From: Rhodobacterales bacterium LSUCC0387
Lineage (GTDB): Bacteria; Pseudomonadota; Alphaproteobacteria; Rhodobacterales; Rhodobacteraceae
Assembly (NCBI GenBank): GCA_015689775.1
Contig: WVSR01000001.1
Span: 683,501-747,500 of the forward strand
Reading direction: 5' to 3'
Length of the DNA: 64,000 bases
Shown here in pieces: positions 29,987 to 48,493 of the stretch. A model generated the notes under the pieces. It did no database searches, was not told the origin of the DNA, and saw only the letters and a program-made list of their open reading frames with translations. The position numbers were made by a program, and so were the translations under genes. The stretch's first letter is position 1. The number at the start of each line of letters is the position of its first letter.

Positions 29987-30045
29987 CCCAACATCCCCTT
30001 TGCCCGTTTACGCAGGCTGCAAGATTGGGTAATCAGCCCTCATGC

Positions 30046-30122
30046 GGTCCCTTAGCTCAACTGGATAGAGCAGCTGACTTCTAATCAGCAGGTTCGGGGT
30101 TCGAGTCCTCGAGGGATCGCCA
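30046..30122 (+). tRNA. tRNA-Arg (anticodon TCT), integration site of the island
   Basis: A complete 77-base cloverleaf with encoded CCA. Acceptor GGTCCCT pairs with AGGGATC (one G-T wobble), anticodon arm GCTGA-CTTCTAA-TCAGC with TCT at 30080-30082, T arm CGGGG-TTCGAGT-CCTCG. Its bases 3-77 plus one more recur at 41369-41444 and its last 38 recur with one change at 44319-44356. The 5' flank is ordinary host sequence and the 3' flank is island sequence. Confidence 0.95.
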
Positions 30123-30123
30123 T
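30048..30123 (+). repeat. Attachment core, left copy (attL of unit 1)
   Basis: A 76-base stretch from tRNA position 3 to one base beyond CCA is identical to 41369-41444. The two copies bound an 11.3-kb unit that contains its own integrase gene, so this is the direct repeat left by site-specific integration into tRNA-Arg. Confidence 0.9.
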
Positions 30124-30430
30124 AAAAATAAGAAAAAAATTCACTTTTACATCTTCGCGCGGAATATAAGCGAGACATTCAGCGAGACGAAATGGCGTGG
30201 AATCGCGTAATTTGACGTAGACGGTAAAGCACCGTCCCACGCGCGCTTGGCTGCGTGTTTGCTCCCGCGCGCGCGCGCGTCGCTCCCGTTTTGTGTGTGA
30301 TTAGTCACCGAACGCTGTGTATGCGAGGTGACGTGCCACCTTGGTTCATCGATTGTATCTTGGATTTTTAGTATAAATATGGCATTGATGTGCGCCATAG
30401 AAACTTAACCGTCAGGCAAGTTGTTAAACT
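30123..30430. other. Left end of unit 1, non-coding
   Basis: About 300 bases between the tRNA and the first cargo gene. It contains the left pair of AGCGAGAC repeats (30169-30188) and a GC-alternating stretch near 30270. An 83-codon minus-strand frame here overlaps the repeats and is not credible. The promoter of the gene at 30431 should be in the AT-rich 30350-30425 part. Confidence 0.55.
30169..30195 (+). repeat. Putative integrase arm-type sites, left
   Basis: AGCGAGAC occurs twice with a 12-base period (30169 and 30181), followed by GAAATGG. The same 27-base block, with three differences, stands at 41259-41285 in the same orientation next to the integrase start. In the circular form the two blocks would flank the tRNA core at about 46 and 84 bases, as arm sites of lambda-type integrases do. 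Confidence 0.65.
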
Positions 30431-30727
30431 ATGCGCTCAAAGGAAATGAGTTTTGCCCAATTGAAAAGAATGCTTCTTATGATGGAAGCAGACCTCGGGA
30501 TGACGGATCTTTCCCAAGATGAAAAGGACATATTGGCTGCTGTCTTTGAACTGCGAGATGCCAATGGGTATTTTGAAAGTGACAGTGTAAGATCACACGA
30601 ACTTACATCTAGTGTATCTCACGGTACTTTTTTTCGGGCGCTAAGGTCTCTCGTTGAGCGTGGCTTGATCGAGAAGGGGGAAGGAAGGCAGCGTAAGCTT
30701 TATCGACTATCTTTGCAGGCTTCTTAA
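30431..30727 (+). CDS. Small winged-helix-like protein
   Basis: 98 residues, not recognised as a named family. It begins with a helical region (FAQLKRMLLMMEADLG), and the C-terminal half has the look of a winged helix-turn-helix: SSVSHGTFFRALRSLVERG as the recognition region and LIEKGEGRQRKLYRLS as the wing. The pattern is like MarR/plasmid-type DNA-binding proteins. As the first cargo gene it could regulate the element or the cargo. Its end overlaps by 21 bases the convergent membrane protein gene. A similar small protein, in general pattern only, lies at 57839. Confidence 0.55.
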   Translation: MRSKEMSFAQLKRMLLMMEADLGMTDLSQDEKDILAAVFELRDANGYFESDSVRSHELTSSVSHGTFFRALRSLVERGLIEKGEGRQRKLYRLSLQAS

Positions 30728-31291
30728 ACCTCTGAACATCAGCATCAATGCCCCAAAACAGACAAGCGTGCCTGTGGTGTCGCCAATAAGGAAGGCTGCC
30801 ATTATCGGAATGCTGTCTTGTGGCAGAATATTTGACGCGAAAATTATATTATGCCCAACAGAATTTAAAACTGATGATATGAATCCAACAATCAATAAGT
30901 GACGCCATGTCGCCAAGGTTGTCGGGCGGTTGGCTGCATAAAGATTTACTCCTGCGAGCCGTAGTGTTTCGAACGTCACGAACGCCACCGAACTTACCAA
31001 AAACCAAGCTAGTATAGATTTTGTTGTTAAGTCGGCATCTGGGGTCAATATAAAATGCATAAAAAAATTGGCTGCAAAAAGATAAACTACTGACCAGGCC
31101 CCAAACAGCCATGCCGCAATAACCCGAACACCATGAAGCGGGAAGATTAACGCAGCAAAAACTGTCACACTAGGAAGGTACGTCTGTTGTGCAGGGACGA
31201 TGACTTCTTTGACCAAAATCATCGCAATTACGTATCCAACTGTAACTAAAAGCACATTTAAAGTGTGTATTTTTATGGTTTCCAATTTCAT
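30707..31291 (-). CDS. Multi-pass membrane protein, MASE1-like
   Basis: 194 residues with about five or six hydrophobic segments (from VLLVTVGYVIAMILV at the N-terminus to FLIGDTTGTLVCFGALMLM near the end). The conserved-looking GDTTGT in the last helix and overall topology recall MASE1 sensory domains, but no GGDEF, kinase or other output domain is attached. The start at 31291 has AGGAAATG upstream; a start 9 codons earlier is also open. It is convergent with the winged-helix gene. Function unknown; sensing or transport are both possible. Confidence 0.6.
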   Translation of the reverse strand: MKLETIKIHTLNVLLVTVGYVIAMILVKEVIVPAQQTYLPSVTVFAALIFPLHGVRVIAAWLFGAWSVVYLFAANFFMHFILTPDADLTTKSILAWFLVSSVAFVTFETLRLAGVNLYAANRPTTLATWRHLLIVGFISSVLNSVGHNIIFASNILPQDSIPIMAAFLIGDTTGTLVCFGALMLMFRGLRSLQR

Positions 31292-31455
31292 TTTGTAGCA
31301 TTTCCTAATATCTAACAAAGCTAGATTACCTCAATTTATTCAGAGTGCAAAACGCTATTTGGCCGTCCATTAGAGTGCGGCTTTTTCAAAATTTTGGGTT
31401 TACTTACCCTCCCAGTATACAATAATTAAGTACCAAAATGTAAATTGAGGCCTAG

Positions 31456-32433
31456 ATGAATCGCCCATGTATTTTCCTGTCACTGGCTGTCGCTTTCTTC
31501 CCAGTCATGGGAGTAGCCGATGGTAGTCCAAATGATGTGATGCAGGAGCATGCCCTGCCTATTATCATGTCCCTAGCCTCCGACGAAGGTTACTCACTAA
31601 GTGATGAGGTACAGCAGCTCGGCCTTTCGTTCTTGAACACCAATTTGAATGAATTTGAGCGGGGCGTTTTGGGCAGTTCGAACTTTACCCATTTTGAGAT
31701 TTCGGTTGGTGCAGACGCTTTTGGATTACGTTCTACCGGAACCTCAACAAAAACTGAAATGATTGCAGTTTACCGCCTGCACGAAAGTCAAAATTGGTTC
31801 CATTTCAATCAGACTTCGCTCGTACGTTTTAATGGGCGTAATACCGTCAATCTCGGTTTTGGCAGTCGTTACATTAACGATCCTGAAACAGTTATTCTCG
31901 GTGGCAACATCTTTTATGACTATGAACTCGACAGCGACCATGAACGAAGTGGCTTTGGGGTAGAGGTTTTAACCTCCTTGCTAGAGTTCAGAGCCAACCG
32001 CTATCACGCGATATCGGGAACCGTTAATTATCAAAGTTCCGATGAGACTGCGCTCGACGGACATGACATAAAACTGACTGCTAACTTGCCTTACTTGTAT
32101 TCATCCAATGTATATTTTGAGCAAAGCGATTTTGACGATGGTGCGGCTTATTCAGTCGAAACAGATGAGTATGGCGTACAGCTAGAGGTCGCTCCCAATC
32201 TAGTTTTCAGTTTTTCAGAACAGCAAGAACAAGGTAGCCCCACAGAACGTGTAGCATCCTTGACCTATTCCATCGCGTTAGGTGAGCAAAATGCTCCGAC
32301 GCGTGTAATGCAAGATGGTGATTGGGCTGCTCAGTTGCAGCCAATCCGCGATCAGCTGTACCGACCAGTTGAGCGCGAAAATAGAATTATGAAGAAGACA
32401 GTGGTCTTCGGCGTCACGGCTAGTGGATATTAA
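31456..32433 (+). CDS. Inverse autotransporter beta-barrel protein without passenger
   Basis: 325 residues. A signal peptide (CIFLSLAVAFFPVMGVADG) is followed by a short linker and an outer-membrane beta-barrel. Words such as VNLGFGSRYI, ILGGNIFYDYE, HERSGFGVEV and EFRANRYHAISG match the inverse-autotransporter (intimin/invasin, type Ve) barrel. It ends soon after QLYRPVERENRI, the place where the passenger Ig-like domains normally begin; here only about 15 residues follow. So this is a barrel alone. The next gene starts 2 bases after its stop, suggesting an operon in which a separate secreted protein may take the passenger role. Confidence 0.82.
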   Translation: MNRPCIFLSLAVAFFPVMGVADGSPNDVMQEHALPIIMSLASDEGYSLSDEVQQLGLSFLNTNLNEFERGVLGSSNFTHFEISVGADAFGLRSTGTSTKTEMIAVYRLHESQNWFHFNQTSLVRFNGRNTVNLGFGSRYINDPETVILGGNIFYDYELDSDHERSGFGVEVLTSLLEFRANRYHAISGTVNYQSSDETALDGHDIKLTANLPYLYSSNVYFEQSDFDDGAAYSVETDEYGVQLEVAPNLVFSFSEQQEQGSPTERVASLTYSIALGEQNAPTRVMQDGDWAAQLQPIRDQLYRPVERENRIMKKTVVFGVTASGY

Positions 32434-32435
32434 TC

Positions 32436-33323
32436 ATGAGATATTTTGTAATATTAGTGTTTTGCCTTTTCATTTTCCCACTGGGCGCTCTTGAGGCTGC
32501 TGGTCCCCCAATTTGCACAGAAGACAGTAGTGGCCGAATTACGAATGTAGATGCAGGCGGCTCTAACGATTTTTGCAGACTGTCGCCGTCGGAACTGCAA
32601 ATTACACTTAAGTATCTCGGTCTTTGTACCAGCCAACCAAGTGTCAGTTCATATAGTACTGTCTGCACTCCACTCTTTGAAAGCGCCGTTGGAGAAGAGT
32701 TGACTTTGGCATCAGGTGGTTCGGTGCCGTTAGTTGGGTCAATATCAATTCCGGAGGGCACTTACACACATGCTTGGATATTAACTTCAAACACAGTCAA
32801 GCTCAGCATTTTGGGCCATTTTACACCGGATCGCACAGGGAAGTCGGGCACAGGCCCTTACTGCTGGACGTTATCGGGGAATTCTTCAGGCGGCACTGGC
32901 GCGATAAACGAGAGTACGTCTCAATCTTCTTGGTTAGCTGAATGTGGAACACTTGCAGATTCCGACCCGCAGCTAACCACCTCTACAATGGTGGCGTTTT
33001 ATGATTTCGCAGGAAGGACTGGCTACTTAAACACCAGCTCTGGAACGAACAGTTCTGGGAGCTATGAAATTATTCTCATCGATAGTGCTGGGAACGAAAG
33101 TATTGTCGCGCTCAGCGGATCCAGCTCAAATCCAGCCACACAATTCGGTGGGACACAAACATTTACAACGCCGGTGGTAGTTTCGCCAAGTACGACATCA
33201 ATTGATGTAGGCTTTCGCCTTGAGAATACTGGTGGAGTTTTGTTCGGAACGGTCGGGGGAGACACGAGCCATATCCCACGCTTTGGTGTAGGAGGTTTTG
33301 AATTCCGCGTTCAAACTAACTGA
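32436..33323 (+). CDS. Secreted protein of unknown family, Ser/Thr/Gly-rich
   Basis: 295 residues with a signal peptide (FVILVFCLFIFPLGALEAA). The mature part starts with a cysteine-containing region (PPICTEDSSG, NDFCRL, LGLCTSQ, STVCTPLF), then SISIPEGTYTHAW and a long low-complexity region of predicted beta structure rich in S, T and G, without charged clusters. I do not recognise the family. It begins 2 bases after the inverse-autotransporter barrel gene and could be a surface partner, pilin-like or adhesin-like, but this is inference from position and composition. Confidence 0.7.
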   Translation: MRYFVILVFCLFIFPLGALEAAGPPICTEDSSGRITNVDAGGSNDFCRLSPSELQITLKYLGLCTSQPSVSSYSTVCTPLFESAVGEELTLASGGSVPLVGSISIPEGTYTHAWILTSNTVKLSILGHFTPDRTGKSGTGPYCWTLSGNSSGGTGAINESTSQSSWLAECGTLADSDPQLTTSTMVAFYDFAGRTGYLNTSSGTNSSGSYEIILIDSAGNESIVALSGSSSNPATQFGGTQTFTTPVVVSPSTTSIDVGFRLENTGGVLFGTVGGDTSHIPRFGVGGFEFRVQTN

Positions 33324-33376
33324 ATCTATCGATGATCTAAATTTGATCATTCGACAGCCCATACGGAAACGATGCA

Positions 33377-34504
33377 ATGCTACTTTTCAGAAACCTTGGC
33401 TTAGTGTTTGCTCTAGCTTTCCCATCTGTTGCCTTGGCTGACGATACAGCTCGCATGGCCCAGTCTTTACTGAACGAGTTGGGGTATTCTATTGCTGTTG
33501 ATGGTGCTTGGGGGCCAAACAGCCAGAGAGCCTTGGAGTCATTTTACAATCAAAATGACCAGGTTTTTGACGGCACTTTTGATGAAACAGAATTGGCTGA
33601 TTTAGCAGCAGCAAATAACCCGATTGCAGCAATTATGGATGCGGAAACCGCTGCATTATTTGGTGTTCATGACCAAAATATTTCCTCCGAAGATGGGCTT
33701 CAAATTGTTGAGTTTGAAGGCCGGACGGCAGCTCGTTTCTTTTTGAGATATGCCGATGGTGGTGGGGCGGAGGACTGGAACCCAAACGACATGAACGGAA
33801 GAGCGCAGCGCATCCAGGTTAGAGAAATTCCCGAGTATGGCGAAATGCGGGATGGGTTTGAATATTGGTACAAGTTTTCAATGTATATCCCCACTCCGTT
33901 CGGTGCGCGCGGTCATTCAAACTCTCCGTGGGATATCAAGTTCCGAGATGGCGGTGTCCAAATGTATCCAACCTTCTCGTTTGTTAACCACTGGGGAAAC
34001 CTCACATACCAGGCCCCCGAAGAGGAGGTTGTCTGCTGGGAGGCCGAAGATCAAAATGGCAACACAACAGAGATGTGCGGTAATGTTGGTTTAACCGCTG
34101 TGATGAACTACCCGCAGTCCTATTATGACCAGTGGGACGATTATGTTTTACAGGTAAATATGCGTGAGGGTCGGGAGATAACTCGCATTTTCCGTAATCA
34201 GGAACTTTTGGGAGTTCTGCCCGGCGATTTGAGCCGAGACGGAGATTATGCTGGCTTCAAATTTGGCCTCTACCGTTTCCGAATATCGGGTGAGCCATTA
34301 GACGAAACAATTTACTTTGCAGACGTCATGCGCAGGTCAAGCTGTGAGGAGTTGGGTATTGGGAACTGCGAGGCCATGACATCAGCTCAGTCGGTACCAG
34401 GCATATATGGCGCGATGGAAATGACGCTCTGCGGCATTGAGCCATATGAAAATCGGCCATGTCCGACGCTGTGTAGAGGCAACCAGTGCAACAGGCTGCA
34501 ATGA
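33377..34504 (+). CDS. Secreted polysaccharide-lyase-like protein with N-terminal peptidoglycan-binding domain
   Basis: 375 residues. Signal peptide (LVFALAFPSVALA), then a PG_binding_1 domain at about residues 25-75 (MAQSLLNELGYSIAVDG, WGPNSQRALESFY). The remaining 270 residues resemble the jelly-roll fold of heparin-lyase/alginate-lyase-like enzymes: YWYKFSMYIP, HSNSPWDIKFRDGG, SYYDQWDDYVLQVN, YAGFKFGLYR. Several cysteines near the C-terminus (CEELGIGNCEAM, CPTLCRGNQCN) suggest disulfides. It probably acts on an acidic polysaccharide outside the cell or in the envelope. Active-site residues cannot be fixed from sequence alone. Confidence 0.72.
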   Translation: MLLFRNLGLVFALAFPSVALADDTARMAQSLLNELGYSIAVDGAWGPNSQRALESFYNQNDQVFDGTFDETELADLAAANNPIAAIMDAETAALFGVHDQNISSEDGLQIVEFEGRTAARFFLRYADGGGAEDWNPNDMNGRAQRIQVREIPEYGEMRDGFEYWYKFSMYIPTPFGARGHSNSPWDIKFRDGGVQMYPTFSFVNHWGNLTYQAPEEEVVCWEAEDQNGNTTEMCGNVGLTAVMNYPQSYYDQWDDYVLQVNMREGREITRIFRNQELLGVLPGDLSRDGDYAGFKFGLYRFRISGEPLDETIYFADVMRRSSCEELGIGNCEAMTSAQSVPGIYGAMEMTLCGIEPYENRPCPTLCRGNQCNRLQ

Positions 34505-34570
34505 TGTCTTCCTCCCAGTCGTTTCAATGATTCAAGTTGAACGCGGTTTGTAGTTTAAAGAGTTGGATTT

Positions 34571-36841
34571 ATGGCAACCATATCAGACAGAATAGCTTGG
34601 GTATTGGTGTCATCATTCCTATCTGTCGTTTATGCAAGTGCACCAACTCTTGCCCAAAATTTTTTGGCTGAGACAACCCACTCCAGAAATTTCAGAGGCT
34701 ATGCAGCAGGCCATGAATTAACTACACCAAATTATTCCGACTTTTTTGCTTTTGAAAATCCATTAGAGCTAAGGTCTGTTGGAGCGGTTATTTCTGCTGC
34801 GGGCAATTTAATAGCCTATGACGACCAGCCTGCCATTCAATACGATATAATTATTAATTGGGGGGGCTTCGAGTTTCCGGCCACAATTTGCCACCAATAC
34901 ATAGAAAGCGTCGGTTATTTTGGCACCAGTATTGCGGTATCTTCAGGCCAGGGTTTCGGTGGCATTGAGGATCTTGAGCAATATGCAGACACCAAATGTC
35001 ATGATGATGGGCCATTGGTGGCAGTTCGGAGTTGGCGGCCACCAATCGAGTTTTCGCCAATCGGGCTTACAGCACTGTTCTTGGAATTGAGGCGTGAATA
35101 TATCGCCATCCAATTACTAAATAGCTTACCCAACTTACCTATTACACACCAAGACATGTTTAGTGATGCGCTTGGAATTCCAATAACTGGTGCGTCTCAG
35201 ACCCTGCCGCGAGCACAATCAGGCCTCACGCCTTCAGTTAACAATGCAACTCTCCAGCTTGTGCATCCATATGCGGAATTCCGAGATGAACAAGGTGAGA
35301 ATGTTGGCGCTTATGGATACGCAGCCGCTATCAGTATCATTGATATAAATGATGATGGTTACCCTGAAGTTTTGTCGTTTCCTACCAATAGAATTGAAGC
35401 GCGGCCTCTGCAGATTTTAGCTTACGAAAATACTGGGGAGACGTTTTCATATAACGATCAAATGATCACCCCGTCCAATCAAGAGGCAGTTAGGGACAGG
35501 ATTGTCGCTGACTTTGATAACGACGGATTCGATGACCTTCTCGTCGTAGACACAGGCTGGGAACTTGATAACAGAAATCCGTCTGCCTTTAAGGGTGCCA
35601 CCCTGAAACTTTTCATGGGCAACGGAGTCAACTTGGATTTTGTTCCTGATGAAGAGTGGTTTGGTAGAGAAATGCCACGTTTCTATAACCACATGGGTTC
35701 GCATGGCGATTTGGATAATGACGGTGACATTGACATAGTCGTTGCGGCCATGAGTGGGCCAATCATACAGGGGGGGTTGCGGGTGCTAATAAATGACGGA
35801 AATGCTCGCTTCTCAGAACATGTATTTACGCACGCACAGACGGGTCTTGTCGGCGATCCATCGGGAGTAGTTGTAGTTGAATCCGTTGATGGGCCAAGAA
35901 TTATTGCCTCTGGATATCGTTCATGGACTGAAGAAAATCCCTCCTCAGTGCCTGGTGTATTTCGATTTTCTAATGGACGCCTAATTCGTGAGGCATCAAT
36001 TGAGAAGCCATTCTCAAATAGCACTGTTTGGATGAATTACGGTGGGGCTGATGCTTATGCCGTCGACATAAACAACGACGGAATAGAGGACTATGTACAG
36101 CTCTGGGAAACAGAACCTACTAATACAGGCATATTTGATGAATGGAGCCACATTGGCGATTTGCGGGTAGAGAGTAGGTATGAAACTCTCGGCATGAACG
36201 ATGACATGGTCGCGGTCTATTTGCAAAATTCAGCAGGTGAGTTTCTTCTATCTAGCGTCTTTCCATTGTCACAAGATGGAAGCCCATTGTTAGAGTTTGC
36301 AGATGTCAACAACGATGGCTGGGTCGATTTTTACACTTATGGATATCATGTTAAGCGTAATTCAATTCATGAAACGATTTGGCTGAACGATGGAACGGGC
36401 CAATTTGGGAATCCTACTGAAATACCTGTTCAAGGATTTGGCCCCCGACTAAGCGTTACAGGCTTTCTACTTGATTTTGACAAAGACAATGACTTTGATT
36501 TTTTAGGTCTTTGGGGGCACGGCGGCGGCGAGCGGTTGTTGGTCTTTGAAAACCACGGCGTTGATTTTGAATTGGATGACGCAACTGTGGTTAATCATGT
36601 AATTTCAATGCGCGACTTCTTTGGCTTCCAAGTTGAACAAGCGTTACAAAATGATCGATCGAAAGTAGTCCAATTGCAGACCGCGCTAAATCAGCTTGGT
36701 TACAATGCCGGCTCTCCAGACGGCATTTTCGGGCCAGCCACGCGCAGAGCGATAGAGGCCTTTAACGCTGACTACTCTGGTCGCTTCGTCGCTGGTCTGA
36801 CACAATCAAACGCGGCCGCGATTTTATCAGCGGTTGAATAA
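34571..36841 (+). CDS. Secreted FG-GAP/VCBS repeat protein with C-terminal peptidoglycan-binding domain
   Basis: 756 residues with a signal peptide (VLVSSFLSVVYASAPTLA). From about residue 255 to 640 there are six calcium-loop words of the FG-GAP/VCBS beta-propeller type: DINDDGYPE, DFDNDGFDD, DLDNDGDID, DINNDGIED, DVNNDGWVD and DFDKDNDFD. Residues of about 699-740 are a PG_binding_1 domain (QTALNQLGYNAGSPDGIFGP). The first 250 residues are not recognised. It is the last of the four exported cargo proteins and the second with a peptidoglycan-binding domain, here at the opposite end. A large extracellular or wall-bound adhesin or scaffold is the simplest reading. Confidence 0.78.
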   Translation: MATISDRIAWVLVSSFLSVVYASAPTLAQNFLAETTHSRNFRGYAAGHELTTPNYSDFFAFENPLELRSVGAVISAAGNLIAYDDQPAIQYDIIINWGGFEFPATICHQYIESVGYFGTSIAVSSGQGFGGIEDLEQYADTKCHDDGPLVAVRSWRPPIEFSPIGLTALFLELRREYIAIQLLNSLPNLPITHQDMFSDALGIPITGASQTLPRAQSGLTPSVNNATLQLVHPYAEFRDEQGENVGAYGYAAAISIIDINDDGYPEVLSFPTNRIEARPLQILAYENTGETFSYNDQMITPSNQEAVRDRIVADFDNDGFDDLLVVDTGWELDNRNPSAFKGATLKLFMGNGVNLDFVPDEEWFGREMPRFYNHMGSHGDLDNDGDIDIVVAAMSGPIIQGGLRVLINDGNARFSEHVFTHAQTGLVGDPSGVVVVESVDGPRIIASGYRSWTEENPSSVPGVFRFSNGRLIREASIEKPFSNSTVWMNYGGADAYAVDINNDGIEDYVQLWETEPTNTGIFDEWSHIGDLRVESRYETLGMNDDMVAVYLQNSAGEFLLSSVFPLSQDGSPLLEFADVNNDGWVDFYTYGYHVKRNSIHETIWLNDGTGQFGNPTEIPVQGFGPRLSVTGFLLDFDKDNDFDFLGLWGHGGGERLLVFENHGVDFELDDATVVNHVISMRDFFGFQVEQALQNDRSKVVQLQTALNQLGYNAGSPDGIFGPATRRAIEAFNADYSGRFVAGLTQSNAAAILSAVE

Positions 36842-36861
36842 ATATTCCTCACATTCAGCAG

Positions 36862-36903
36862 ACGACAAGACGACACCCCTAAAGGGGGGTGTCTGTCGTG
36901 TCG
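36862..36903. terminator. Hairpin between the cargo cluster and the primase gene
   Basis: GACACCCC pairs with GGGGTGTC around a 6-base loop (36872-36893), with imperfect extension by flanking GACGACA/TGTCGTG. It sits between two convergent genes and may stop transcription from either side, although no clean T-run follows. It could instead be part of the iteron region. Confidence 0.5.
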
Positions 36904-37140
36904 CCATCTGCAGGGTTATGTCAGGCGTCATTTTAAGGATTGTCGCCCGATGTCGCCTTGTCGCCGAGTGAGTAGTAATCATCTTTTGCTGCCAATAATC
37001 CCTTTGCAACAAGGTCGCGTCGCGCGCGGCTAAAGGCATCATTCTTCGACTTATCATTGTCGCCTGTGTGTCGCTGGAGAAAAATCGGACGCCAGTCATC
37101 CAAATGCAGGCGACAAGGCTCTGGTTTTGATTTTGTCGCC
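36899..37140. repeat. Cluster of TGTCGCC iterons, candidate replication origin
   Basis: The heptamer TGTCGCC occurs at 36899, 36941, 36951, 36959, 37058 and 37134, with an inverted copy at 37109 and a one-base variant (TGTCGCT) at 37068. That is seven exact copies in about 240 bases, where chance would give far less than one. They lie across the 3' end of the primase-helicase gene and just beyond it. In some phage-inducible islands the origin with iterons lies right after the rep/primase gene, so this is a candidate origin. Confidence 0.5.
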
Positions 37141-38684
37141 TCCTTGAACGTGTCCATCGCCAATTGCTGAGCAGGGCTGAGCTTCTCATTGTTTTTGCGC
37201 TGGCGATACTCCACGCGGTGCAGGACAGACGTGTCATCAATTGTCACAAAGCAAAACTGCATCGGCTCAAATGGCGCGGCGTCTTTTTGTTTGTCGCAGA
37301 TCAACTGCACGTCATGCTCACCAAATTTTCGCATCACCATCGATGTATCAAGTGCGGCAAAAAAGGATGAGTGGCCACGCGCGCCTGCTGCACCGTCTTT
37401 GCCGTGGTGATGAACAATCAGAACGGTTGCTCCGAAAGCATGCATCAACTCATCGCAGGCACTGACAAACTCACCCATGTCCTGCGGGGCATTTTCGTTG
37501 CCACCTCCGAAATTGCGTGCGAGCGTGTCAATAACGATCAGCTTAACGTCTTTGACCTTGCTGATATCGTCCCGGAGGACCTCTAACCGCGTGCGGTCGC
37601 GCATGTCGATGCTCGAATTCGAGAAGTGCAAAGGGCTGTTTTTACGATCGAGCTGCACGCCGCGGTCTTTTGCCCAAGCTTCCGCGCGTCGACGGATGCC
37701 TTGCCGCCCCTCACCAAGGATATACATCACCCCGCCTTGCTCGACTGTATGTCCGTGGAAGTCGTGGCCTGTTGCGATGCTACACGCCATATCGACGGCC
37801 ATGAAGCTCTTGCCTGTGTATGAGGGAGCAACCAGGGCTGCTGAGGCATATTTTGGTAGTATGCCATCGATAATGAAGCTTGGCGGCTCCAGATTGATGT
37901 CCAACACATGGCTGAACAGCTGCAAAGCCTTGGGGCTGGTGACGTTACCCACAGCTGCTCGCACTGCTGCATCACCTTCGCTGTCCCACAAGTCCCACCA
38001 GTCTTTCACAACAGGGGGGGTGACATGGGGCAAGCCTGCAGCTTTTACAGCTTTGCGTCCTGCCTCATCATTGTCAGCTGCAATAATGACATTGTAGCCC
38101 TGTGCCTTGAGCTGCTTAGCTGAAGCAGGAAGGGTATTCGCATCTAGTGCAAAAAACACCTGCTGACCTGTCACGAGATACAACACAACAGCATCCGCCC
38201 AACCCTCCGTGACGTAAAGTACGTCTGACTTCTCGCCAATAAACGTGCCAGCTCCTTCTTTTTTCATGCCTGGGCTGAAGCGCTTTGAGCCATCAGAGTT
38301 GATGAATTGTTTGCCGCGAAGTTCACCCGTTTCGATGTCACGAATTTCGACAACAACCGTGTTGCCGTCACAAACAGCGCCTGTGCCTGCTAGCTCAATG
38401 CGTTTCTGAATGTGATATGGCACATCGGACTTTGGTTGCCGTGGTAGATCTGGAACCCTTGGCTCGAACTTTGGCAGCAATCCATCTTGCTCCATATGGC
38501 GTGTTCGGTCGGATAAGGCGCAATCTTTTCGACAGTGATGCTTCAGATTGCCGTTGTGGTCAGAAATCCAAAAACGGTCGTCACCGCCGCAGTTTGGACA
38601 TGGGCCATGCCATTCATGGCCAACTTTTTTCAGCCCATATTTTTCAATGATTGGCTGCGAATACTGATCAAATGGAATATCCAT
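36933..38684 (-). CDS. Primase-helicase (zinc-ribbon, Toprim, RepA-like AAA ATPase)
   Basis: 583 residues. N-terminal zinc-binding domain with C29, C32, C51 and C55 (CPNCGGDDRFW), a Toprim-type domain (VTEGWADAVVLYL, IIAADNDEAGRKA), then a RecA-like helicase domain with Walker A APSYTGKSFMAV, Walker B LIVIDTLARNFGG and VLIVHHHGKDG. This domain order is typical of replication proteins of satellites, plasmids and integrative elements. The ATG follows TTGAGGTCAAGC. It is the last gene of the minus-strand mobility module. The C-terminal end overlaps the TGTCGCC iterons. Confidence 0.9.
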   Translation of the reverse strand: MDIPFDQYSQPIIEKYGLKKVGHEWHGPCPNCGGDDRFWISDHNGNLKHHCRKDCALSDRTRHMEQDGLLPKFEPRVPDLPRQPKSDVPYHIQKRIELAGTGAVCDGNTVVVEIRDIETGELRGKQFINSDGSKRFSPGMKKEGAGTFIGEKSDVLYVTEGWADAVVLYLVTGQQVFFALDANTLPASAKQLKAQGYNVIIAADNDEAGRKAVKAAGLPHVTPPVVKDWWDLWDSEGDAAVRAAVGNVTSPKALQLFSHVLDINLEPPSFIIDGILPKYASAALVAPSYTGKSFMAVDMACSIATGHDFHGHTVEQGGVMYILGEGRQGIRRRAEAWAKDRGVQLDRKNSPLHFSNSSIDMRDRTRLEVLRDDISKVKDVKLIVIDTLARNFGGGNENAPQDMGEFVSACDELMHAFGATVLIVHHHGKDGAAGARGHSSFFAALDTSMVMRKFGEHDVQLICDKQKDAAPFEPMQFCFVTIDDTSVLHRVEYRQRKNNEKLSPAQQLAMDTFKEATKSKPEPCRLHLDDWRPIFLQRHTGDNDKSKNDAFSRARRDLVAKGLLAAKDDYYSLGDKATSGDNP

Positions 38685-38767
38685 CGCTTGACCTCAATAT
38701 TTGATTGGCGGCCAAGCACGTGGTATTCTGCAGATGGTTAAAGCGTTCAAACTAACCCACCCAGAAG

Positions 38768-38788
38768 CCGCGTGCCTGAGGCGCGCGG
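38768..38788. other. Strong hairpin after the 99-residue gene
   Basis: A 9-base-pair stem CCGCGTGCC / GGCGCGCGG with loop TGA, one G-T pair. It starts 4 bases past the stop of the minus-strand gene at 38792. On the plus strand it is followed by TTTTCATTTT and looks like a terminator; on the minus strand there is no T-run, so there it might stabilise or attenuate the message before the primase gene. Confidence 0.45.
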
Positions 38789-38791
38789 TTT

Positions 38792-39091
38792 TCATTTTGG
38801 CGAGTAGGCTTTCTCGGGAGCCTGTGGCCGAGACGGCAGCGCATCCACCACATCCGTAGCGTCACGCTCGGAGAGGCCCCCAAAGCGCCGGAGTGCTTTG
38901 ATTAGGCCTGGTCGGGTCATCACATACGCGCAGACCCTCCAACGCGGCACTCCGCGACTTGCTCCATCTCTCACCTGCACAAGCCACTGAATGCCGTTGC
39001 GGCAGACAGCGATGCGCAGGTTGCTAAGCGGCCGCGCTATAACATTCATGTAGAGGTCGCTGGTTTCAGATGCGCGAGCATTGATGATCAT
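38792..39091 (-). CDS. Small protein of unknown function in the mobility module
   Basis: 99 residues, basic and not recognised. It contains NGIQWLVQVRDG and the SRGVPRWRVCAYVMTRPGL segment, followed by RRFGGLSERDATDVVDALP. The ATG at 39091 overlaps the stop of the 37-codon gene upstream (ATGA), so it is read by translational coupling; a GTG three codons earlier is the longer option. Genes of this kind recur between integrase and primase in integrative elements of related bacteria by position, but no function can be assigned. Confidence 0.5.
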   Translation of the reverse strand: MIINARASETSDLYMNVIARPLSNLRIAVCRNGIQWLVQVRDGASRGVPRWRVCAYVMTRPGLIKALRRFGGLSERDATDVVDALPSRPQAPEKAYSPK

Positions 39092-39201
39092 TGGCCGCAC
39101 TCCTTTACGGAGCAGGATGGCGACCGACCCGTGCAGGGTCCTGCATCAAAGCTACCCCCGTCTAATTTGATGAAGGGGGGGGTATCGGTGTGTTCGCTCA
39201 T
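39088..39201 (-). CDS. Very small gene, 37 residues, coupled to its neighbours
   Basis: A 37-codon frame (MSEHTDTPPFIKLDGG ... CSVKECGQ) that starts 2 bases after the stop of the 78-residue gene, with GGAGGTG as an excellent ribosome binding site, and ends with an ATGA overlap to the next gene. This tight placement on both sides is the main argument that it is translated. It has two cysteines and several prolines near the middle. No family recognised. Confidence 0.55.
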   Translation of the reverse strand: MSEHTDTPPFIKLDGGSFDAGPCTGRSPSCSVKECGQ

Positions 39202-39203
39202 TG

Positions 39204-39440
39204 TCACACCTCCGCTTGCTTATAAGCCGGGGCGGCTTCAAACTTTTGCTCCGCGTGTTGAAGCAGCTCTTCCACCTCGAATATGGCCGCTTTGTTTGGG
39301 CGGCGAACAACTAGCGGCCATTTTTCTAGCGTTCGCGGGCTGATTGGAAAAAAGAGATGGGTGACTATCGCTGCGGCTGTCACTTTGTCAGCGTATTTCG
39401 GCAGAGGTTGATCTGGCTGCCATTTAGGGTTGCGTAGCAT
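39204..39440 (-). CDS. Small DNA-binding-like protein (possible excisionase/AlpA type)
   Basis: 78 residues (LRNPKWQPDQPLPKYADKVT ... SPRTLEKWPL). The segment ADKVTAAAIVTHLFFPISPRTLEKWPLVVRR reads like a MerR/AlpA-type helix-turn-helix in which a prolyl ISPRTLEKW recognition helix is followed by a basic wing. Position two genes after the integrase on the same strand fits a recombination directionality factor. This is inference from pattern and place. The stop is 2 bases upstream of the 37-codon gene. Confidence 0.5.
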   Translation of the reverse strand: MLRNPKWQPDQPLPKYADKVTAAAIVTHLFFPISPRTLEKWPLVVRRPNKAAIFEVEELLQHAEQKFEAAPAYKQAEV

Positions 39441-39520
39441 TAGGTAGCTCCAAGTTGTTGGTTGCCACCCTTAGATACCTTGTCGAATCATCCCGCCTCG
39501 CAATCTGCCTAAAATTCAAG

Positions 39521-40024
39521 TTATCCTAATTTTTCACGCTCAAATCGTCGATACGCTTGCCAAATGTTGTCTACTTGTTTCGGTGAGAGTGCGAATTTTT
39601 TCGCAACTTTTGCAATGATCTGGCTGCGAGTGCCTTTGGGAGGAGTGTTCTTCAGGGTAACAAGTCGCGAAGTTGTAACTTTACCCCCGCATTTTTTGTT
39701 AATTGCCTTGATTTCCTCATTGATATCAGCCTGATGCTGCTCATAGCCTTCCTCGAGTTCGTCATCGCCTCTGCTTTGAAGCCATTGGCGTCGTTGCGGG
39801 ACTGGTATCGAGTTCACCTTGCTCCATGTGGCGTCCAACTCCGTGTCCCCGATTAGCTTGTCGCGTCTCATGCGTAGGGCGGCGTGTTGGGCCTGCCTGT
39901 GTAGGGTTTCACAATCTTGGCCAACTTCCATTACGAACCAAAAATCCCATTTACGAGGCCGCCCCGCTCCCCGTCGTTTGCCGCCGTGGCTGTTCAACGG
40001 GCGTTGCTGTTGTTTGGAACCCAT
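39521..40024 (-). CDS. Basic protein of unknown function with AT-hook-like N-terminus
   Basis: 167 residues. The N-terminus has HGGKRRGAGRPRKWDF, an AT-hook-like or phage-terminase-like basic word, then a helical charged region (DTELDATWSKVNSIP, EEGYEQHQADINEEI) and a C-terminal KVAKKFALSPKQVDNIWQAYRRFE that resembles a helix-turn-helix. The ATG at 40024 follows GGAGGG and lies inside the 3' end of the integrase gene (31-base overlap), so it is co-transcribed with int. Likely DNA-binding, role unknown. Confidence 0.55.
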   Translation of the reverse strand: MGSKQQQRPLNSHGGKRRGAGRPRKWDFWFVMEVGQDCETLHRQAQHAALRMRRDKLIGDTELDATWSKVNSIPVPQRRQWLQSRGDDELEEGYEQHQADINEEIKAINKKCGGKVTTSRLVTLKNTPPKGTRSQIIAKVAKKFALSPKQVDNIWQAYRRFEREKLG

Positions 40025-41253
40025 AACCAACCCTCCAGCAGCATAGCCCAGGTTCGCATCGCATCGCGTCTTTTATCGAGGAGCTTTGCATGCTGATAAT
40101 GCTTGATGACGCCTCCGCGTGTCTCGCTTTGTTTGTGGTTCAATAATCCATCTATTACGTCCACTGACACCTCTGAATGTTCTGCCATTAATGTCGAAAA
40201 TGTTCGCCTCAAGTCATGCAGTGTAAATTCCTCTACCCCCGAAGCCTTTCGCACCTTTTTATTAAAATGGCTCCAAGATTGCATTCTTGCGTCGGGAGTT
40301 CTTGTTAGTTGGAATACTCTAAATTCCTGCGGCGCTTTGGAATGACCAAGAATGTCAAATGCTAAGGGTGTTACTGGCATCACGAAATGAGCAGAATTTT
40401 TTGTTTCTGTGTGCGATAACCGAATTTCACTTTGCGGGTGTATTACTTGTGACCAGGTTAGGGTAGCGCCTTCATCTGCCCGCAGTGGCGTCGTTATCAT
40501 GAACCTAAGGTATCGCAGGTATTCAGGCTTTAAACTTTCACATTGCCACAGTCGCTTGAGTTGTTCGGGCGTGTAGTAGGACATCCGTGGCGGCGGTGGT
40601 TTAGGGCGTCGCTTTTTAGCAATTAAAGAAGTGGGGTTTGTGTGGATGACCTCCTCATCGATCAGATATTCTAGAAAACGCGAAAGCGCGCCGAAGCGGT
40701 GACGATTGGTTGCTGGTGCAAGGTGGTGTCGCTCCAAAAGCGACCTGATGTGTTTAGTATCAATGCAATCAGGACGAAGGTAGGATGCTCCCATTTCCTC
40801 CAAGCTGAGGCGGACATGCCGAGTTTCATCTCGCTCGTGTTTGCTTCCTCCACCGTTCAGCTCGCTGTGAGTGTAAATTTCAAGCCATTCGCTGCAGGTT
40901 TTTTGCCGTGCTTCTGCGGCGCGCTTCAACGCAGTTTGTTCGCGTTGCTCCAGCGCGGGGTCGAGGCCATCACGGACCTGAGCTTTAATTAGCTCAGCTT
41001 TGGTGCGGGCTTCACTCGGCGTCATTAGAATCGGATCGCCGAGCTTCATGGCTCTTTGGGGATGGCGCTTGCCACCATCTAAATAGCCTCGTTTGCGATA
41101 TGTATACACCCAGCTGGAACTTGAATTGTTAATTACCAGTTTAAGGCCAGGGCAGCCTTCGTCCCTGAGCGTTAGCCTTTGATTTATTGCTCTTTGCTGT
41201 TTGATGAATTTGTCGATTTTTGATCGATCGATATAGCAAGATACGGTCGGCAT
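39994..41253 (-). CDS. Tyrosine-type site-specific integrase
   Basis: 419 residues of the phage-integrase family with an N-terminal DUF4102/arm-binding part (TYRKRGYLDGGKRHPQ, KLGDPILMTPSEARTKAELIK). Catalytic residues can be read as R258 (TTPLRADEG), H346 and R349 (HDLRR), H373 (LLNHKQ) and Y386 (KHYQHA). The start lies 5 bases from the right pair of AGCGAGAC repeats and about 115 bases from the right tRNA copy, the usual int-att arrangement. It directs integration into tRNA-Arg(TCT). First gene of the minus-strand module. Confidence 0.95.
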   Translation of the reverse strand: MPTVSCYIDRSKIDKFIKQQRAINQRLTLRDEGCPGLKLVINNSSSSWVYTYRKRGYLDGGKRHPQRAMKLGDPILMTPSEARTKAELIKAQVRDGLDPALEQREQTALKRAAEARQKTCSEWLEIYTHSELNGGGSKHERDETRHVRLSLEEMGASYLRPDCIDTKHIRSLLERHHLAPATNRHRFGALSRFLEYLIDEEVIHTNPTSLIAKKRRPKPPPPRMSYYTPEQLKRLWQCESLKPEYLRYLRFMITTPLRADEGATLTWSQVIHPQSEIRLSHTETKNSAHFVMPVTPLAFDILGHSKAPQEFRVFQLTRTPDARMQSWSHFNKKVRKASGVEEFTLHDLRRTFSTLMAEHSEVSVDVIDGLLNHKQSETRGGVIKHYQHAKLLDKRRDAMRTWAMLLEGWLWVPNNSNAR

Positions 41254-41258
41254 TTATC

Positions 41259-41285
41259 AGCGAGACTTTCAGCGAGACAAATTGG
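41259..41285 (+). repeat. Putative integrase arm-type sites, right
   Basis: AGCGAGAC twice with a 12-base period (41259 and 41271), followed by AAATTGG; 24 of 27 bases match the left block at 30169-30195. It lies immediately upstream of the int start codon, so integrase binding here could also repress its own gene. Confidence 0.65.
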
Positions 41286-41366
41286 GGTAAGTTTGCGAAG
41301 CATAGCGTAGTTCAATACTTCTTGAAAATCTGTTTTATTCAGAATAATTGGGTTAAAATACTTACT

Positions 41367-41443
41367 TATCCCTTAGCTCAACTGGATAGAGCAGCTGACT
41401 TCTAATCAGCAGGTTCGGGGTTCGAGTCCTCGAGGGATCGCCA
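41367..41443 (+). tRNA. Second tRNA-Arg(TCT) copy, altered at the first two bases
   Basis: Bases 3-77 are identical to the left tRNA-Arg, including the TCT anticodon at 41401-41403 and the encoded CCA. The first two bases are TA instead of GG: base 2 can pair with T71, but base 1 (T) faces C72, leaving a mismatch at the end of the acceptor stem. It is both the right attachment site of unit 1 and the left one of unit 2. Whether it makes a working tRNA is uncertain. Confidence 0.75.
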
Positions 41444-41490
41444 TTAAATCAATGACTTAGGTGATTTTAGTTAGTCTTGAGACGCATTTG

Positions 41491-41509
41491 GGGTGCCATA
41501 TGGGTGCCA
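41491..41509 (+). repeat. Putative arm-type sites of unit 2
   Basis: GGGTGCCA occurs twice with an 11-base period, 47 bases past the tRNA core. Unit 1 has its own repeated pair at 46 bases from the same point of the core. The similar placement but different word suggests binding sites for a different, now absent, integrase. Confidence 0.45.
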
Positions 41510-41569
41510 AAAATGTTCAGGGGTTACTTGGCCTGACCAAATTCCGGCAACAAAGAATCGTGTACCGGG

Positions 41570-41639
41570 GGACCCCCTAAATCGGACCGTGCGCCTTGGA
41601 GGGGTGGCTATAGTGCTGCGTTGGTGGCTTTATTGAATG
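41570..41639 (+). repeat. Direct repeat flanking the glycosidase-like gene, copy 1
   Basis: About 70 bases, from GACCCCCTA to TTATTGAATG, imperfectly repeated at 43632-43702 in the same orientation (roughly 70 percent identical by eye with small gaps). The two copies enclose only the gene at 41866-43533, so this gene may have moved as a unit. Confidence 0.5.
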
Positions 41640-41865
41640 AGAGGTTTTGTTTGTAAGGTTTATTGAAGGAAAGTAACCTAAGTTTGCGTAATTAGTTCTG
41701 GTACAAAAGTAACCAAGCCAAACAGGCGACGGCACCGTAAAATTAGGCCTAAGTAACTGGTAAATATCCTGTTTTGTTTGTGTCATTTGTTATTTGGACT
41801 GGTTCTAGCATTCTACAAACAATGGAGATGCAAGAAAAGTTTGGGAACTCATGGGGAGATGCGCA

Positions 41866-43533
41866 ATGAAACGAGAGCATGGCTACTTTTCAGGTTTGGT
41901 AACAGTGATTGGAGGGTATGATCACGTTCATGCTCTGCGCAGATTGCGCGAGGAATACCCTGACATAAACTGGCAAGCCGCGACATTGCCAACGGGCTCA
42001 ACACCTTGCTTGTGCTTCCATGAAGACCGATCAATGTCTGAAGGCTCGTTTCGCATTCAAACTGAGTGGAAGGAGGGTACCCCTGCAAAAGTTGATGTAA
42101 TTGGTGGACCGTTTTCTGGTGTTATTTATGGGGTTGAAGAACTAATTTCTCAAGGAGGCTCCGACAAAGCGCGCATGGCATTGCCTCAAGAGACTTTCGA
42201 AGACGCGCCAGGTCTAACCTATCGCACTTTTTGGACCTGGGACCATTCGACAAATTGGGAGCTTTCGCAGATTGGCCAACAGGAAATAGGCGTTTTTAAC
42301 CCTTATGGTAAACCGCCTGGAGGCTTTCTGCGTGACTACAAACGCTGCGTCGATTTCTGCTCAAAAAACCGTATCGCTGCAATTGTCATCTATGGCTTTC
42401 TACGAGACAGCCATGGCGGCGTTGAAGCCGCAAAGGAGCTGTGCATCTATGCCAAAGAGCGTGGCGTCCGCATTCTGCCTGGCATCGCCATTGGTTCATA
42501 TGGCGGCGTTTATTGGGAGGGAGACAATCAATATAATCTAGCCACATGGCTAAAGAAGAACCCACAAGCTGCCGCGACTCTAGAGAAAGGCGTTGGTTTT
42601 CAGATTGCTGACCTTGCTTTCCCTCTCAACTTTCCACGTTCGGATTATACGCTTTCTGCCTGCCCGTCTGCACCTGAAACTATGGCCTGGATGGAAGAGG
42701 GCGTCAGCTGGCTCTGTGAGACTTTTGAAGTAGGCGGTGTCAACATCGAGGCCGGAGATTATGGTGTTTGCGGATGTTCTCGATGTGTCGCGCGCCGCGC
42801 TAATGAAGAAGAAGCCGCTCGGCGTCGTGATGTGCATGGAGATTATTGGTCGCATACGGATATGGCAGATAATTTCCCACGCCTATTTAATGCCGCTCGA
42901 GCAGCTCGAGCTGACACCTGGATATACTCGGAGATCCAGTGGGACAATCTGCTAGACCCTGTTTCGTTGGAGGCCCAGCGTAAGCTGCCGGCTGGCGGTA
43001 TCTATCAACACACAACAAATCGTACCTATTGGAAACGGATTTCGACCGAGCTGACGAAAAGCTACGTCGAAGCACTTCCGATGCAACCAAATGTGCTACG
43101 GTGTCAATTTGCGTGCCAGTGGAATGGTGACGAACGTACGGAACGCTACGCGCTTAATGCTCCGGTCTTCGCAGAAATGGCACAATTAAGTTACCGCACT
43201 GGGATGAAGGGTCTAACCATATGGGGTGAGCCATCGCCTTGGTATGCGACAGTCGAGCTGTCCTATCTCGCATTTGCTCGTTTTTCGTGGAACCCTTCTT
43301 TGAGGTATGAAGAATTTATGAGCAACGATGTTGCGCCACTAATGGGCGGCGTGGAAGCAGCAGAAAAATTCATCGCCATCGCCAGTGAAATAGATGTCAA
43401 TCAACGCCTCCCCTTAGAGAGGCTGCAGGCGCTTCAGAGGGAATGTTTGGCGTATCGCGCATCTGGTGAAGCAGGAAGGCGCTGGCTTTCACTGGAGGAA
43501 ATAATTTCGCGGCGGATTTACATGGGGGAATAA
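41866..43533 (+). CDS. Glycoside-hydrolase-like protein (GH20/GH67-related)
   Basis: 555 residues without a signal peptide. The first 100 residues resemble the alpha/beta N-terminal domain found before GH20/GH67-type catalytic barrels (ending in GPFSGVIYGVEELI). Then DAPGLTYRTFWTWDHS opens a probable TIM barrel, with KNRIAAIVIYGFLRDSHGG, ERGVRILPGIAIGSYGG, GGVNIEAGDYGVCGCSRC, and TWIYSEIQWDNL near the end. Acidic residues at strand ends could be catalytic but cannot be identified with confidence. The ATG at 41866 follows GGGGAGATG. It is isolated in the island, flanked by a 70-base direct repeat. Substrate unknown; cytoplasmic location is inferred. Confidence 0.65.
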   Translation: MKREHGYFSGLVTVIGGYDHVHALRRLREEYPDINWQAATLPTGSTPCLCFHEDRSMSEGSFRIQTEWKEGTPAKVDVIGGPFSGVIYGVEELISQGGSDKARMALPQETFEDAPGLTYRTFWTWDHSTNWELSQIGQQEIGVFNPYGKPPGGFLRDYKRCVDFCSKNRIAAIVIYGFLRDSHGGVEAAKELCIYAKERGVRILPGIAIGSYGGVYWEGDNQYNLATWLKKNPQAAATLEKGVGFQIADLAFPLNFPRSDYTLSACPSAPETMAWMEEGVSWLCETFEVGGVNIEAGDYGVCGCSRCVARRANEEEAARRRDVHGDYWSHTDMADNFPRLFNAARAARADTWIYSEIQWDNLLDPVSLEAQRKLPAGGIYQHTTNRTYWKRISTELTKSYVEALPMQPNVLRCQFACQWNGDERTERYALNAPVFAEMAQLSYRTGMKGLTIWGEPSPWYATVELSYLAFARFSWNPSLRYEEFMSNDVAPLMGGVEAAEKFIAIASEIDVNQRLPLERLQALQRECLAYRASGEAGRRWLSLEEIISRRIYMGE

Positions 43534-43631
43534 AAACAACTTAGTAGGTGGCTTGTATTGTCGTGGAATAATCATCCAATAACCACGTTCAGAAGATCGC
43601 GGTCCTCTGAACTATATTTGCAGACTTAGAA

Positions 43632-43702
43632 AGACCCCTTACATCAGGTACCTGTGCCTCGGACTTTGGGGTTTAATGCTGGGTTAGCAGTTTCATTGAA
43701 TG
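43632..43702 (+). repeat. Direct repeat flanking the glycosidase-like gene, copy 2
   Basis: From GACCCCTTA to TCATTGAATG; partner of 41570-41639. A short inverted relative (TGCCAACCCAGCATA) is also visible at 44263-44277. Confidence 0.5.
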
Positions 43703-43742
43703 GCTTTTTTGTTGGATAGCGCGTGGCGTGCAATCCTTTTGT

Positions 43743-44213
43743 TCAGCAGTAGGATGCACGTTCAATAGAAGCGATGGCGGCGCCTGTCTCGAGCCCTGCA
43801 TATCGGCCGCCTGAATATCTCCTGCAATCAAGCGCAAAACCGTTTCTGATTGCTATGGCCCCGATATCCTCTCCATTGAGATAACAAATGCCTATTAGCC
43901 GGTCATGACTGCGTTCACCCGTCAGGTTGCATGCGACTTCTCTGTTCAAGACAAGCTTAGCCATAAAAAGTTTTGCTTCTTGTCCAACCTGCGTTGAGAG
44001 TTCTGGCCCGTCGATGCCGTTTAGCCTTACAGCAATACCACCCAATTCAACTGTGTCGACGTCTCTGACGTGGGAAACTATCCCTGTTATTTGAGTTTCG
44101 CGGGCGTCTAACTTTTCCGATAAAACCGATAAAACCATTGTGCACAGCATGAGTAATATCGAACTGAACGTATAAGATAGGTTTATCAATTTGCCCCTGG
44201 ATTTTTCTGACAT
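43743..44213 (-). CDS. Staphylococcal-nuclease-like (thermonuclease) exported protein
   Basis: 156 residues. An N-terminal hydrophobic segment (SSILLMLCTMVLSVLSEKLDA) should export or anchor it. The SNase fold is shown by HVRDVDTVELGGIAVRLNGIDGPEL, with the catalytic Arg in VRLNGID and acidic residues after it, and the second Arg in SHDRLIGICYLNGEDI. It ends normally, with CRRYSGGRYAG. Likely a calcium-dependent nuclease outside the cytoplasm. No ribosome binding site was seen before the ATG at 44213. It is the last gene of the island. Confidence 0.82.
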   Translation of the reverse strand: MSEKSRGKLINLSYTFSSILLMLCTMVLSVLSEKLDARETQITGIVSHVRDVDTVELGGIAVRLNGIDGPELSTQVGQEAKLFMAKLVLNREVACNLTGERSHDRLIGICYLNGEDIGAIAIRNGFALDCRRYSGGRYAGLETGAAIASIERASYC

Positions 44214-44858: not shown

Positions 44859-44881
44859 CGAGAACTGCGCGAGGGTAAGGC

Positions 44882-45256: not shown

Positions 45257-45262
45257 TCTGCC

Positions 45263-45904: not shown

Positions 45905-45978
45905 ACCTTGCCCCTTTCTCTTGCTCAATTCTTGCGCCCGCGTTAGGCAGTGGGTCAAATGTGAAAAAAGGTGCCTCC

Positions 45979-47205: not shown

Positions 47206-47264
47206 TCCCCTCATCTGTCCATAATTTTTAAGCCCGTCCTGCTTCGATACCATTGGTTTGGGCA

Positions 47265-48469: not shown

Positions 48470-48493
48470 CAATTCGCCAGAAGATCCGCCTGG

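Follow-up and report, generated by a model that had tools for sequence, protein, structure and literature searches.

A cluster of seven copies of the heptamer TGTCGCC at the 3' end of a primase-helicase gene is very probably the iteron array of the replication origin of an integrated island, read by the C-terminal winged helix of the initiator that the gene itself encodes. We favour this reading because the words found at the same spot in related elements change together with the DNA-binding tail of the protein. At the level of sequence, the cluster, the gene, the integration, the arrays at homologous loci and the linkage between word and winged helix are established. The integrated island is probably satellite-like and may be phage-inducible.

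A heptamer cluster at the end of the initiator gene

We counted words across the window, i.e. the whole 64-kb stretch of DNA analysed. TGTCGCC (GGCGACA in the sense of the gene) occurs 23 times, compared with a mean of 10.74 and a largest count of 20 in 100 shuffles, and seven exact copies fall between 36899 and 37140. When all 7-mers were compared, this was the densest cluster in the window (7 copies per 250 bases); next came an offset version of this heptamer (5), then clusters of 4. The whole window was also subjected to 60 block-wise dinucleotide shuffles, each of which gave a top 7-mer cluster of 3 to 5 copies, with 5 reached once. The first-pass annotation had described seven exact heptamers, six in one orientation, as far above chance, and this was confirmed (seven copies against a shuffle maximum of five); a chance origin was rejected both by the window shuffles and by the control tiles and stops at homologous loci (see below). 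Because the initiator gene ends at 36933 on the - strand, six of the seven copies are intragenic (within its last 208 bases) and the copy at 36899 lies 3' of the stop codon, which bears out the overlap with the end of the primase-helicase gene that had been claimed. The span originally given, 36899-37140, does contain all of the copies but leaves outside most of a hairpin at 36861-36905. One-mismatch copies are also present at 36861, 36869, 36924 and 37069. The features of the array and its gene are:

36861-36905, - strand: terminal hairpin, comprising the last exact iteron, an inner stem and one-mismatch inverted copies at 36861 and 36869
36899-36905, + strand: iteron TGTCGCC, exact match, 3' of the stop codon (+27)
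36941-36947, + strand: iteron TGTCGCC, exact match, intragenic; sense frame 0 (GDN)
36951-36957, + strand: iteron TGTCGCC, exact match, intragenic; sense frame 2 (KAT)
36959-36965, + strand: iteron TGTCGCC, exact match, intragenic; sense frame 0 (GDK)
37058-37064, + strand: iteron TGTCGCC, exact match, intragenic; sense frame 0 (GDN)
37109-37115, - strand: iteron TGTCGCC, inverted, exact match, intragenic; antisense over CRL
37134-37140, + strand: iteron TGTCGCC, exact match, intragenic; sense frame 2 (EAT)
36933-38684, - strand: initiator gene, 583 aa, with zinc ribbon, Toprim, RSF1010 RepA-type helicase and C-terminal winged helix (Pfam, sequence and fold)
36966-37175, - strand: segment encoding residues 504-573, the C-terminal winged helix that is proposed to bind the iterons (AlphaFold2 models)

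The inner stem of the hairpin (GACACCCC / GGGGTGTC, 36872-36893, palindrome score 8) lies between the last exact iteron and a pair of inverted copies that each have one mismatch. Palindromes scoring at least 9 occurred within 200 bases past the stop at 12/33 array loci and 41/68 viral loci, compared with 49/2537 control tiles, a cut-off below which the window's own hairpin (8) falls. An intrinsic terminator at the hairpin was rejected, as a terminator scan gave no T-tailed site there; the only site returned was at 37103-37085, with 0.6 expected in shuffles. We also rejected an AT-rich opening site for the window, where none is clear. The 30-base stretch of lowest G+C in the window region falls outside the array, compared with a position between copies in L007 and L009, and the iteron copies form groups without a clear AT-rich middle between them. 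A search of Rfam with 29900-41600 returned nothing except two tRNAs.

The integrated island and its sister

The initiator gene sits within an island, the other features of which are:

30046-30122, + strand: tRNA-Arg(tct), left attachment copy
30431-36841, strand not specified: cargo, comprising a PadR-like regulator (weak), an inverse-autotransporter barrel, lyase-like and FG-GAP proteins with peptidoglycan-binding domains, and two familyless ORFs
38792-39100, - strand: 102-aa ORF, kept in the sister island, with weaker matches beside the helicases of L038 and L053
39204-39440, - strand: 78-aa ORF, excisionase/HTH_17-like, by eye only
39521-40030, - strand: 169-aa ORF that overlaps the integrase gene and is also retained by the sister island
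39994-41253, - strand: tyrosine integrase with arm-binding domain (Pfam), 98% identical in the sister island
41367-41443, + strand: tRNA-Arg(tct), second copy, at the right end of the island; only one copy is present in a relative that lacks the insertion

From the right end, the gene order is therefore integrase, 169-aa, 78-aa and 102-aa ORFs, initiator, and then the cargo with its inverse-autotransporter barrel; the end of the initiator gene faces a convergent cargo gene. Searches of Pfam, PHROGs and NCBIfam gave no family for the 78-aa ORF. In a genome of the same genus (G513), window positions 29078-30123 adjoin 44313-52808 around one tRNA-Arg, so that about 14.2 kb has been inserted: the island, which extends to 41443, and a second piece from there to 44356. 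An integrase with a specific attachment site, which is one criterion for a Gram-negative PICI, is accordingly present here (duplicated tRNA-Arg; one-copy relative).

The two tRNA-Arg(tct) copies are identical save for the 5' end. By eye, the right copy starts with TA (41367-41368) where the left starts with GG, and so loses the first acceptor-stem pair; the left copy is therefore probably the working gene. The second inserted piece (41444-44356) lies between the island and a 3' tRNA-Arg fragment (44319-44356), and encodes a 560-aa ORF without a Pfam match and a nuclease-like protein (SNase). Since there is no integrase among its listed ORFs, this piece may be mobilised by the integrase of the neighbouring island.

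A sister island occupies the same tRNA-Arg site in a second genome of the same genus (G289), again between two tRNA-Arg(tct) copies. The DNA of the two islands is 95% similar from 41443 to 37954 only (codon 243 of the initiator), plus the tRNA repeat, whilst the helicase half, winged helix, word and cargo all differ jointly. The helicase half of the sister is 21% identical to that of the window by alignment, and the 4.4 kb surrounding the sister helicase (L006) has no copy of GGCGACA. The sister word, TATCAAC, has three exact copies at +2, +11 and +20 and one-mismatch inverted copies at +40 and +49 (first 60 bases); with one mismatch allowed, the best 7-mer of the sister reaches six copies, a number equalled in 1/500 base shuffles. 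None of the cargo proteins of the window was matched in the sister island. Both islands carry outer-membrane barrel cargo, an inverse autotransporter beta-domain in the window (31456-32433) and an autotransporter beta-domain in the sister (L035:7944-9380).

Domains of the initiator

Pfam matched the 583-aa protein to AAA_25 (4.8e-40), with Toprim_2 barely above the cut-off and a primase zinc ribbon below it. RSF1010 RepA (1g8y, E 0.00011) was the sole PDB sequence match at E ≤0.01, and in an AlphaFold2 model of the initiator (23 sequences; mean pLDDT 81, pTM 0.48), residues 252-499 aligned to RSF1010 RepA with Z 24.4 and rmsd 2.8 over 226 positions. By sequence and predicted fold, the helicase domain is closest to RSF1010 RepA, which sets it apart from the initiators of SaPI, PICI and P4; we take this RepA-type helicase to be of the SF4 class.

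Residues 504-573 are predicted by AlphaFold2 to fold as helix-strand-helix-helix-strand-strand, i.e. a winged helix, with a mean pLDDT of 82 when modelled alone. VIA-align matched it to the winged helices of MukF, Nse, ORC and Cdc6 among others (Z 8-10), and Foldseek with the lone winged helix gave no match at E 0.001 or better. The P4 alpha C-terminal domain was not named among the matches listed (best 50) in either winged-helix fold list.

Arrays at the stop codons of homologous genes

The first-pass annotation had suggested looking in related elements for iterons at this place, whether with this word or another, and homologous stop codons do indeed have them. The homologue set comprised 89 loci (87 bacterial genomes and 2 viral contigs), from which seven with identical protein tails and one with <150 bases past the stop (L099) were dropped before counting. 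This gave 81 loci (79 from bacterial genomes), the window's own gene among them. An array was scored where some 7-mer occurred at least 5 times in 250 bases, within 600 bases around the stop. By this measure there were arrays at the helicase stop of 33/81 loci, compared with 8/620 tiles taken from other parts of these loci. The proportion was 28/51 for loci whose profile match extends into the C-terminal domain and 5/30 for the remainder. For the viral set, the best 80 of at least 583 relatives were fetched (72 distinct), and eight loci with identical tails and four without enough downstream sequence were dropped. Arrays were present in 43 of the 68 contigs counted, compared with 1/1229 control tiles, although the viral count is inflated by the many contigs that are close kin.

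The same contrast was seen among stop codons. In 21 context stretches, five copies were reached at 14/20 helicase stops but at only 6/299 stops of other ORFs (excluding ORFs <100 aa and stops ≤900 bases from the helicase stop or ≤300 from the end of the stretch). Ten phages were hand-picked out of 1327 matching records, and seven had arrays of at least 5 copies (CRP-406, CGphi29, 1N2-2, XX1924, CRP-811, CRP-831 and Rhizobium phage 16-3); in the other three (Indlovu, 5sent1 and MW202475) the count was below five. Across the bacterial and viral sets, 73/149 counted loci had fewer than five exact copies (48/81 and 25/68, respectively), a count of exact words that overlooks degenerate arrays. At this level of sensitivity, stop-codon arrays are common without being universal. 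A separate cluster, of GGATTCA (10 copies within 300 bases, L004:4637-4980), lies on a viral contig, well away from the stop codon of the helicase.

The word differs by lineage, and includes GGCGACA, AACGACA, CGGGACA (L010), CGTTACC (L020), CGTTCCC, CGTCACA (L061), CGGACAA, CTACAAA, GTATAAA and others. One common word for the family was rejected, there being 52 distinct top words among 83 loci. Since 25 of these 52 hold ACA/TGT, compared with 12.5% of background 7-mers, there is merely a shared leaning across the family.

We mapped the contexts of 20 stretches besides the window's, and scanned ten neighbour proteins from five of these in PHROGs. An integrase recognised by the window's own lies upstream of the helicase in 6/20 contexts besides the sister (L037, L040, L042, L043, L044 and L049). 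By gene content, some relatives resemble capsid-carrying satellites, or else prophages: in L042 (7582-17148), from a genome of the window's family, an integrase and RepA-type helicase are followed by terminase large subunit, major head protein and portal, and in L040 portal and tail-terminator genes come after the helicase. The layout of L042 is that of a capsid-forming, satellite-like element, and its own stop-codon cluster (L013) has merely 3 copies. In L038, a DUF6079 protein (12423-13745; E 5e-218, first third of the model) lies downstream of helicase and array, and is possibly defence cargo.

The terminase, head and portal genes directly after the helicase gene in L042 might suggest that the cluster is a packaging site (cos/pac-like) for a terminase. 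We regard this as exceedingly improbable for the window, given that terminase, portal and capsid genes found no match among the 11 main ORFs of its island (each scanned in at least one library) and that the word tracks the tail of the helicase protein.

Copies persist with different peptides and outside the gene

A quite different view is that the words merely mirror codon or peptide repeats (GDK, GDN, KAT) in the protein tail, which the first-pass annotation had named as the result that would overturn its own reading. Three of the six coding copies do encode G-D (frame 0) and two encode A-T (frame 2), and the copy at 37058 covers an HTGD motif that is also kept by homologues with another word. 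Against this, the copies occupy two sense frames, the antisense strand (the sixth coding copy) and a site 27 bases beyond the stop, and exact copies lie entirely 3' of the stop codon in 28/41 arrays. The peptides under the inverted copy differ: PEPCRL in the window, NGDVAG in L007 and KGNVAS in L008. The layout of L007 and L008 (-193, -178 inverted, -117, -18, 0 or +1, and +42) and that of the window (-208, -183 inverted, -132, -33, -25, -15 and +27) coincide after a 15-base shift, except for the inverted copy, which is off by 10; the window copy at +27 is then in the register of the +42 copies. As copies persist with a different peptide and outside the gene, the codon explanation was rejected, and we consider it extremely improbable.

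The word follows the winged helix

To separate the two halves of the protein, we compared words, C-terminal identity and helicase identity after removing loci with helicase cores ≥85% alike (n = 45). With helicase identity controlled, word similarity correlated with C-terminal identity (partial Mantel 0.335; 0/1999 permutations), compared with 0.033 (554/1999) for the helicase core with C-terminal identity controlled. Intragenic words could force such a correlation, and so the comparison was repeated with sites beyond the stop only. The values were 0.326 (0/1999) for the winged helix vs 0.066 (335/1999) for the helicase (n = 39), and with at least 5 copies, 0.283 (0) vs 0.133 (79) (n = 36). 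Shared descent is not fully removed by the Mantel test, which is no substitute for trees.

Arrays of short words can be operators, and the end of the initiator gene faces a convergent cargo gene, so the cluster could be an operator array for a different regulator (the 78-aa or 102-aa protein), or a site at which the initiator acts on transcription only. We find this very unlikely: across elements the word tracks the initiator's own winged helix, a sigma-70 scan of 36700-37200 at this gene end gave no promoter-like match, and the sister island retains the 102-aa and 169-aa ORFs yet has another word.

Array geometry is partly conserved where the word is not. In 41 arrays, 81 of 124 same-orientation neighbours ≤30 bases apart are spaced by 8-11 bases, with a peak at 9 and 10. 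Phages CRP-811 (CTACAAA) and CRP-831 (GTATAAA) have 10 site positions and directions in common, although their words differ, and L023 and L061 share 6 site positions. Over 680 pairs with different words, the mean number of common sites was 1.46 in register vs 1.10 displaced, and 15 pairs had at least 4 common sites in register vs 0 displaced. Retention of the layout despite a new word is thus true for some arrays, but is weak overall.

A model for initiation

The candidate origin of the first-pass annotation remains the best reading, supported by the homologous arrays, by the linkage of word and winged helix and by the failure of the codon account. In the origin model, the gene product would be a self-contained initiator. 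Its winged helix (residues 504-573) would bind the GGCGACA words and gather several copies of the protein on the DNA, whereupon the RepA-type RecA-fold domain would make a ring helicase and the zinc-ribbon/Toprim part would prime DNA synthesis. The hairpin at the end of the array (iteron plus imperfect inverted copies) may end transcription or aid strand opening. The integrase would excise the island from the tRNA-Arg site, after which the island would replicate apart from the chromosome, as do the SaPI, PICI and P4 satellites. Binding, ring loading, priming and use as an origin are the steps that we infer.

Comparison with known systems

Iterons often serve copy control, and those of the window could serve copy control or partition instead of, or besides, an origin. 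A partition, incompatibility or copy-control site that is not itself the start would fit the present data as well as a start site does. We nevertheless judge it highly unlikely, as no partition family was matched among the 11 main ORFs of the island and the location is that of PICI origins, immediately 3' of the initiator gene (PMC6092414). According to the same paper, the Gram-negative PICI origin has two iteron sets around an AT-rich stretch, and the pri-ori of one Escherichia coli PICI was functional in a plasmid test (PMC6092414).

The proposed origin resembles the pri-rep-ori of PICIs and SaPIs in that a small integrated island has iterons at the 3' end of its primase/initiator gene. The Gram-negative PICI criterion of iterons immediately 3' of the primase/rep gene finds its counterpart here, though six of the seven are intragenic. 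Unlike PICIs and SaPIs, the window has an RSF1010 RepA-like helicase (RecA fold), mostly intragenic words and no clear AT-rich middle. SaPI and PICI helicases are of the AAA+/SF3 kind. Because helper dependence and AlpA are both putative, we do not class the island as a PICI.

P4 alpha is similar in that primase and helicase parts are combined in one polypeptide, with crr repeats (GGTGAACA type) directly 3' of the P4 gene. The helicase class of P4 alpha differs from the RSF1010 RepA type; the window helicase is not alpha-type, matching AAA_25 and RSF1010 RepA. The P4 alpha primase is described as Toprim-type in PMC4234260. Unlike the window, P4 has two separated regions, and its annotated type 1 repeats are outside the alpha gene. 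Applied to P4 as a control, the same count recovered the crr repeats annotated 3' of alpha (5 copies), and the cluster at the annotated origin was stronger. Searches of family libraries (rather than direct comparison with the P4 proteins) found no match to psu, delta or sid among the 11 main island ORFs.

The likeness to IncQ plasmid RSF1010 lies in the RepA-type helicase (sequence and fold), and RSF1010 also has iterons and a primase. According to PMC4234260, it uses three polypeptides (RepA, RepB' and RepC), with RepC reading the iterons and a primase in the replicon. In the window, by contrast, zinc ribbon/primase, helicase and winged helix are one protein from one ORF; RepC had no match in family scans of the island ORFs, three small ORFs of which have no family match at all.

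The helicase class of SCCmec Cch2 also differs from that of the window initiator. According to PMC7581432, the C-terminal domains of SaPI Rep and SCCmec Cch2 read such repeats, that of Cch2 binding direct repeats beside its own gene, as proposed here; unlike the window, SCCmec Cch2 has a separate primase-polymerase (PMC7581432). Phages CRP-406, CRP-811, CRP-831 and Rhizobium phage 16-3 have a homologous helicase and a word array at its stop codon, but unlike the window island they are full phages and their words are different. The stretches of these phages that were fetched carry no origin annotation.

Implications

SaPI, PICI, P4 and SCCmec already provide described cases of initiators that read repeats next to the gene encoding them. 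In the full-text literature (few subscription journals), we found no earlier report of iterons beside RepA/AAA_25-type primase-helicases, and our literature search returned no description of a one-protein replicon class of the following kind. We consider it fairly likely that the window island belongs to a widespread class in which one protein combines Toprim primase, RSF1010 RepA-type helicase and winged helix, with a private array of a 7-base word at the end of its own gene. The word would change with the winged helix whilst spacing and direction can stay, and helicase half, winged helix and array would move jointly between islands. In the window's branch, the origin would lie inside the code of the domain that reads it, and a change of word would therefore also alter residues; for instance, GGCGACA gives G-D and AACGACA gives N-D in L009.

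If a further helicase class shares this plan, the plan would seem to have evolved more than once. The reading would also predict replication origins in phages and islands like those read here, none of which is annotated. Dozens of pairs of word and winged helix make target change by replication initiators directly testable and, if the reading is true, phages and satellites would offer a natural collection from which the DNA code of the winged helix could be learned.
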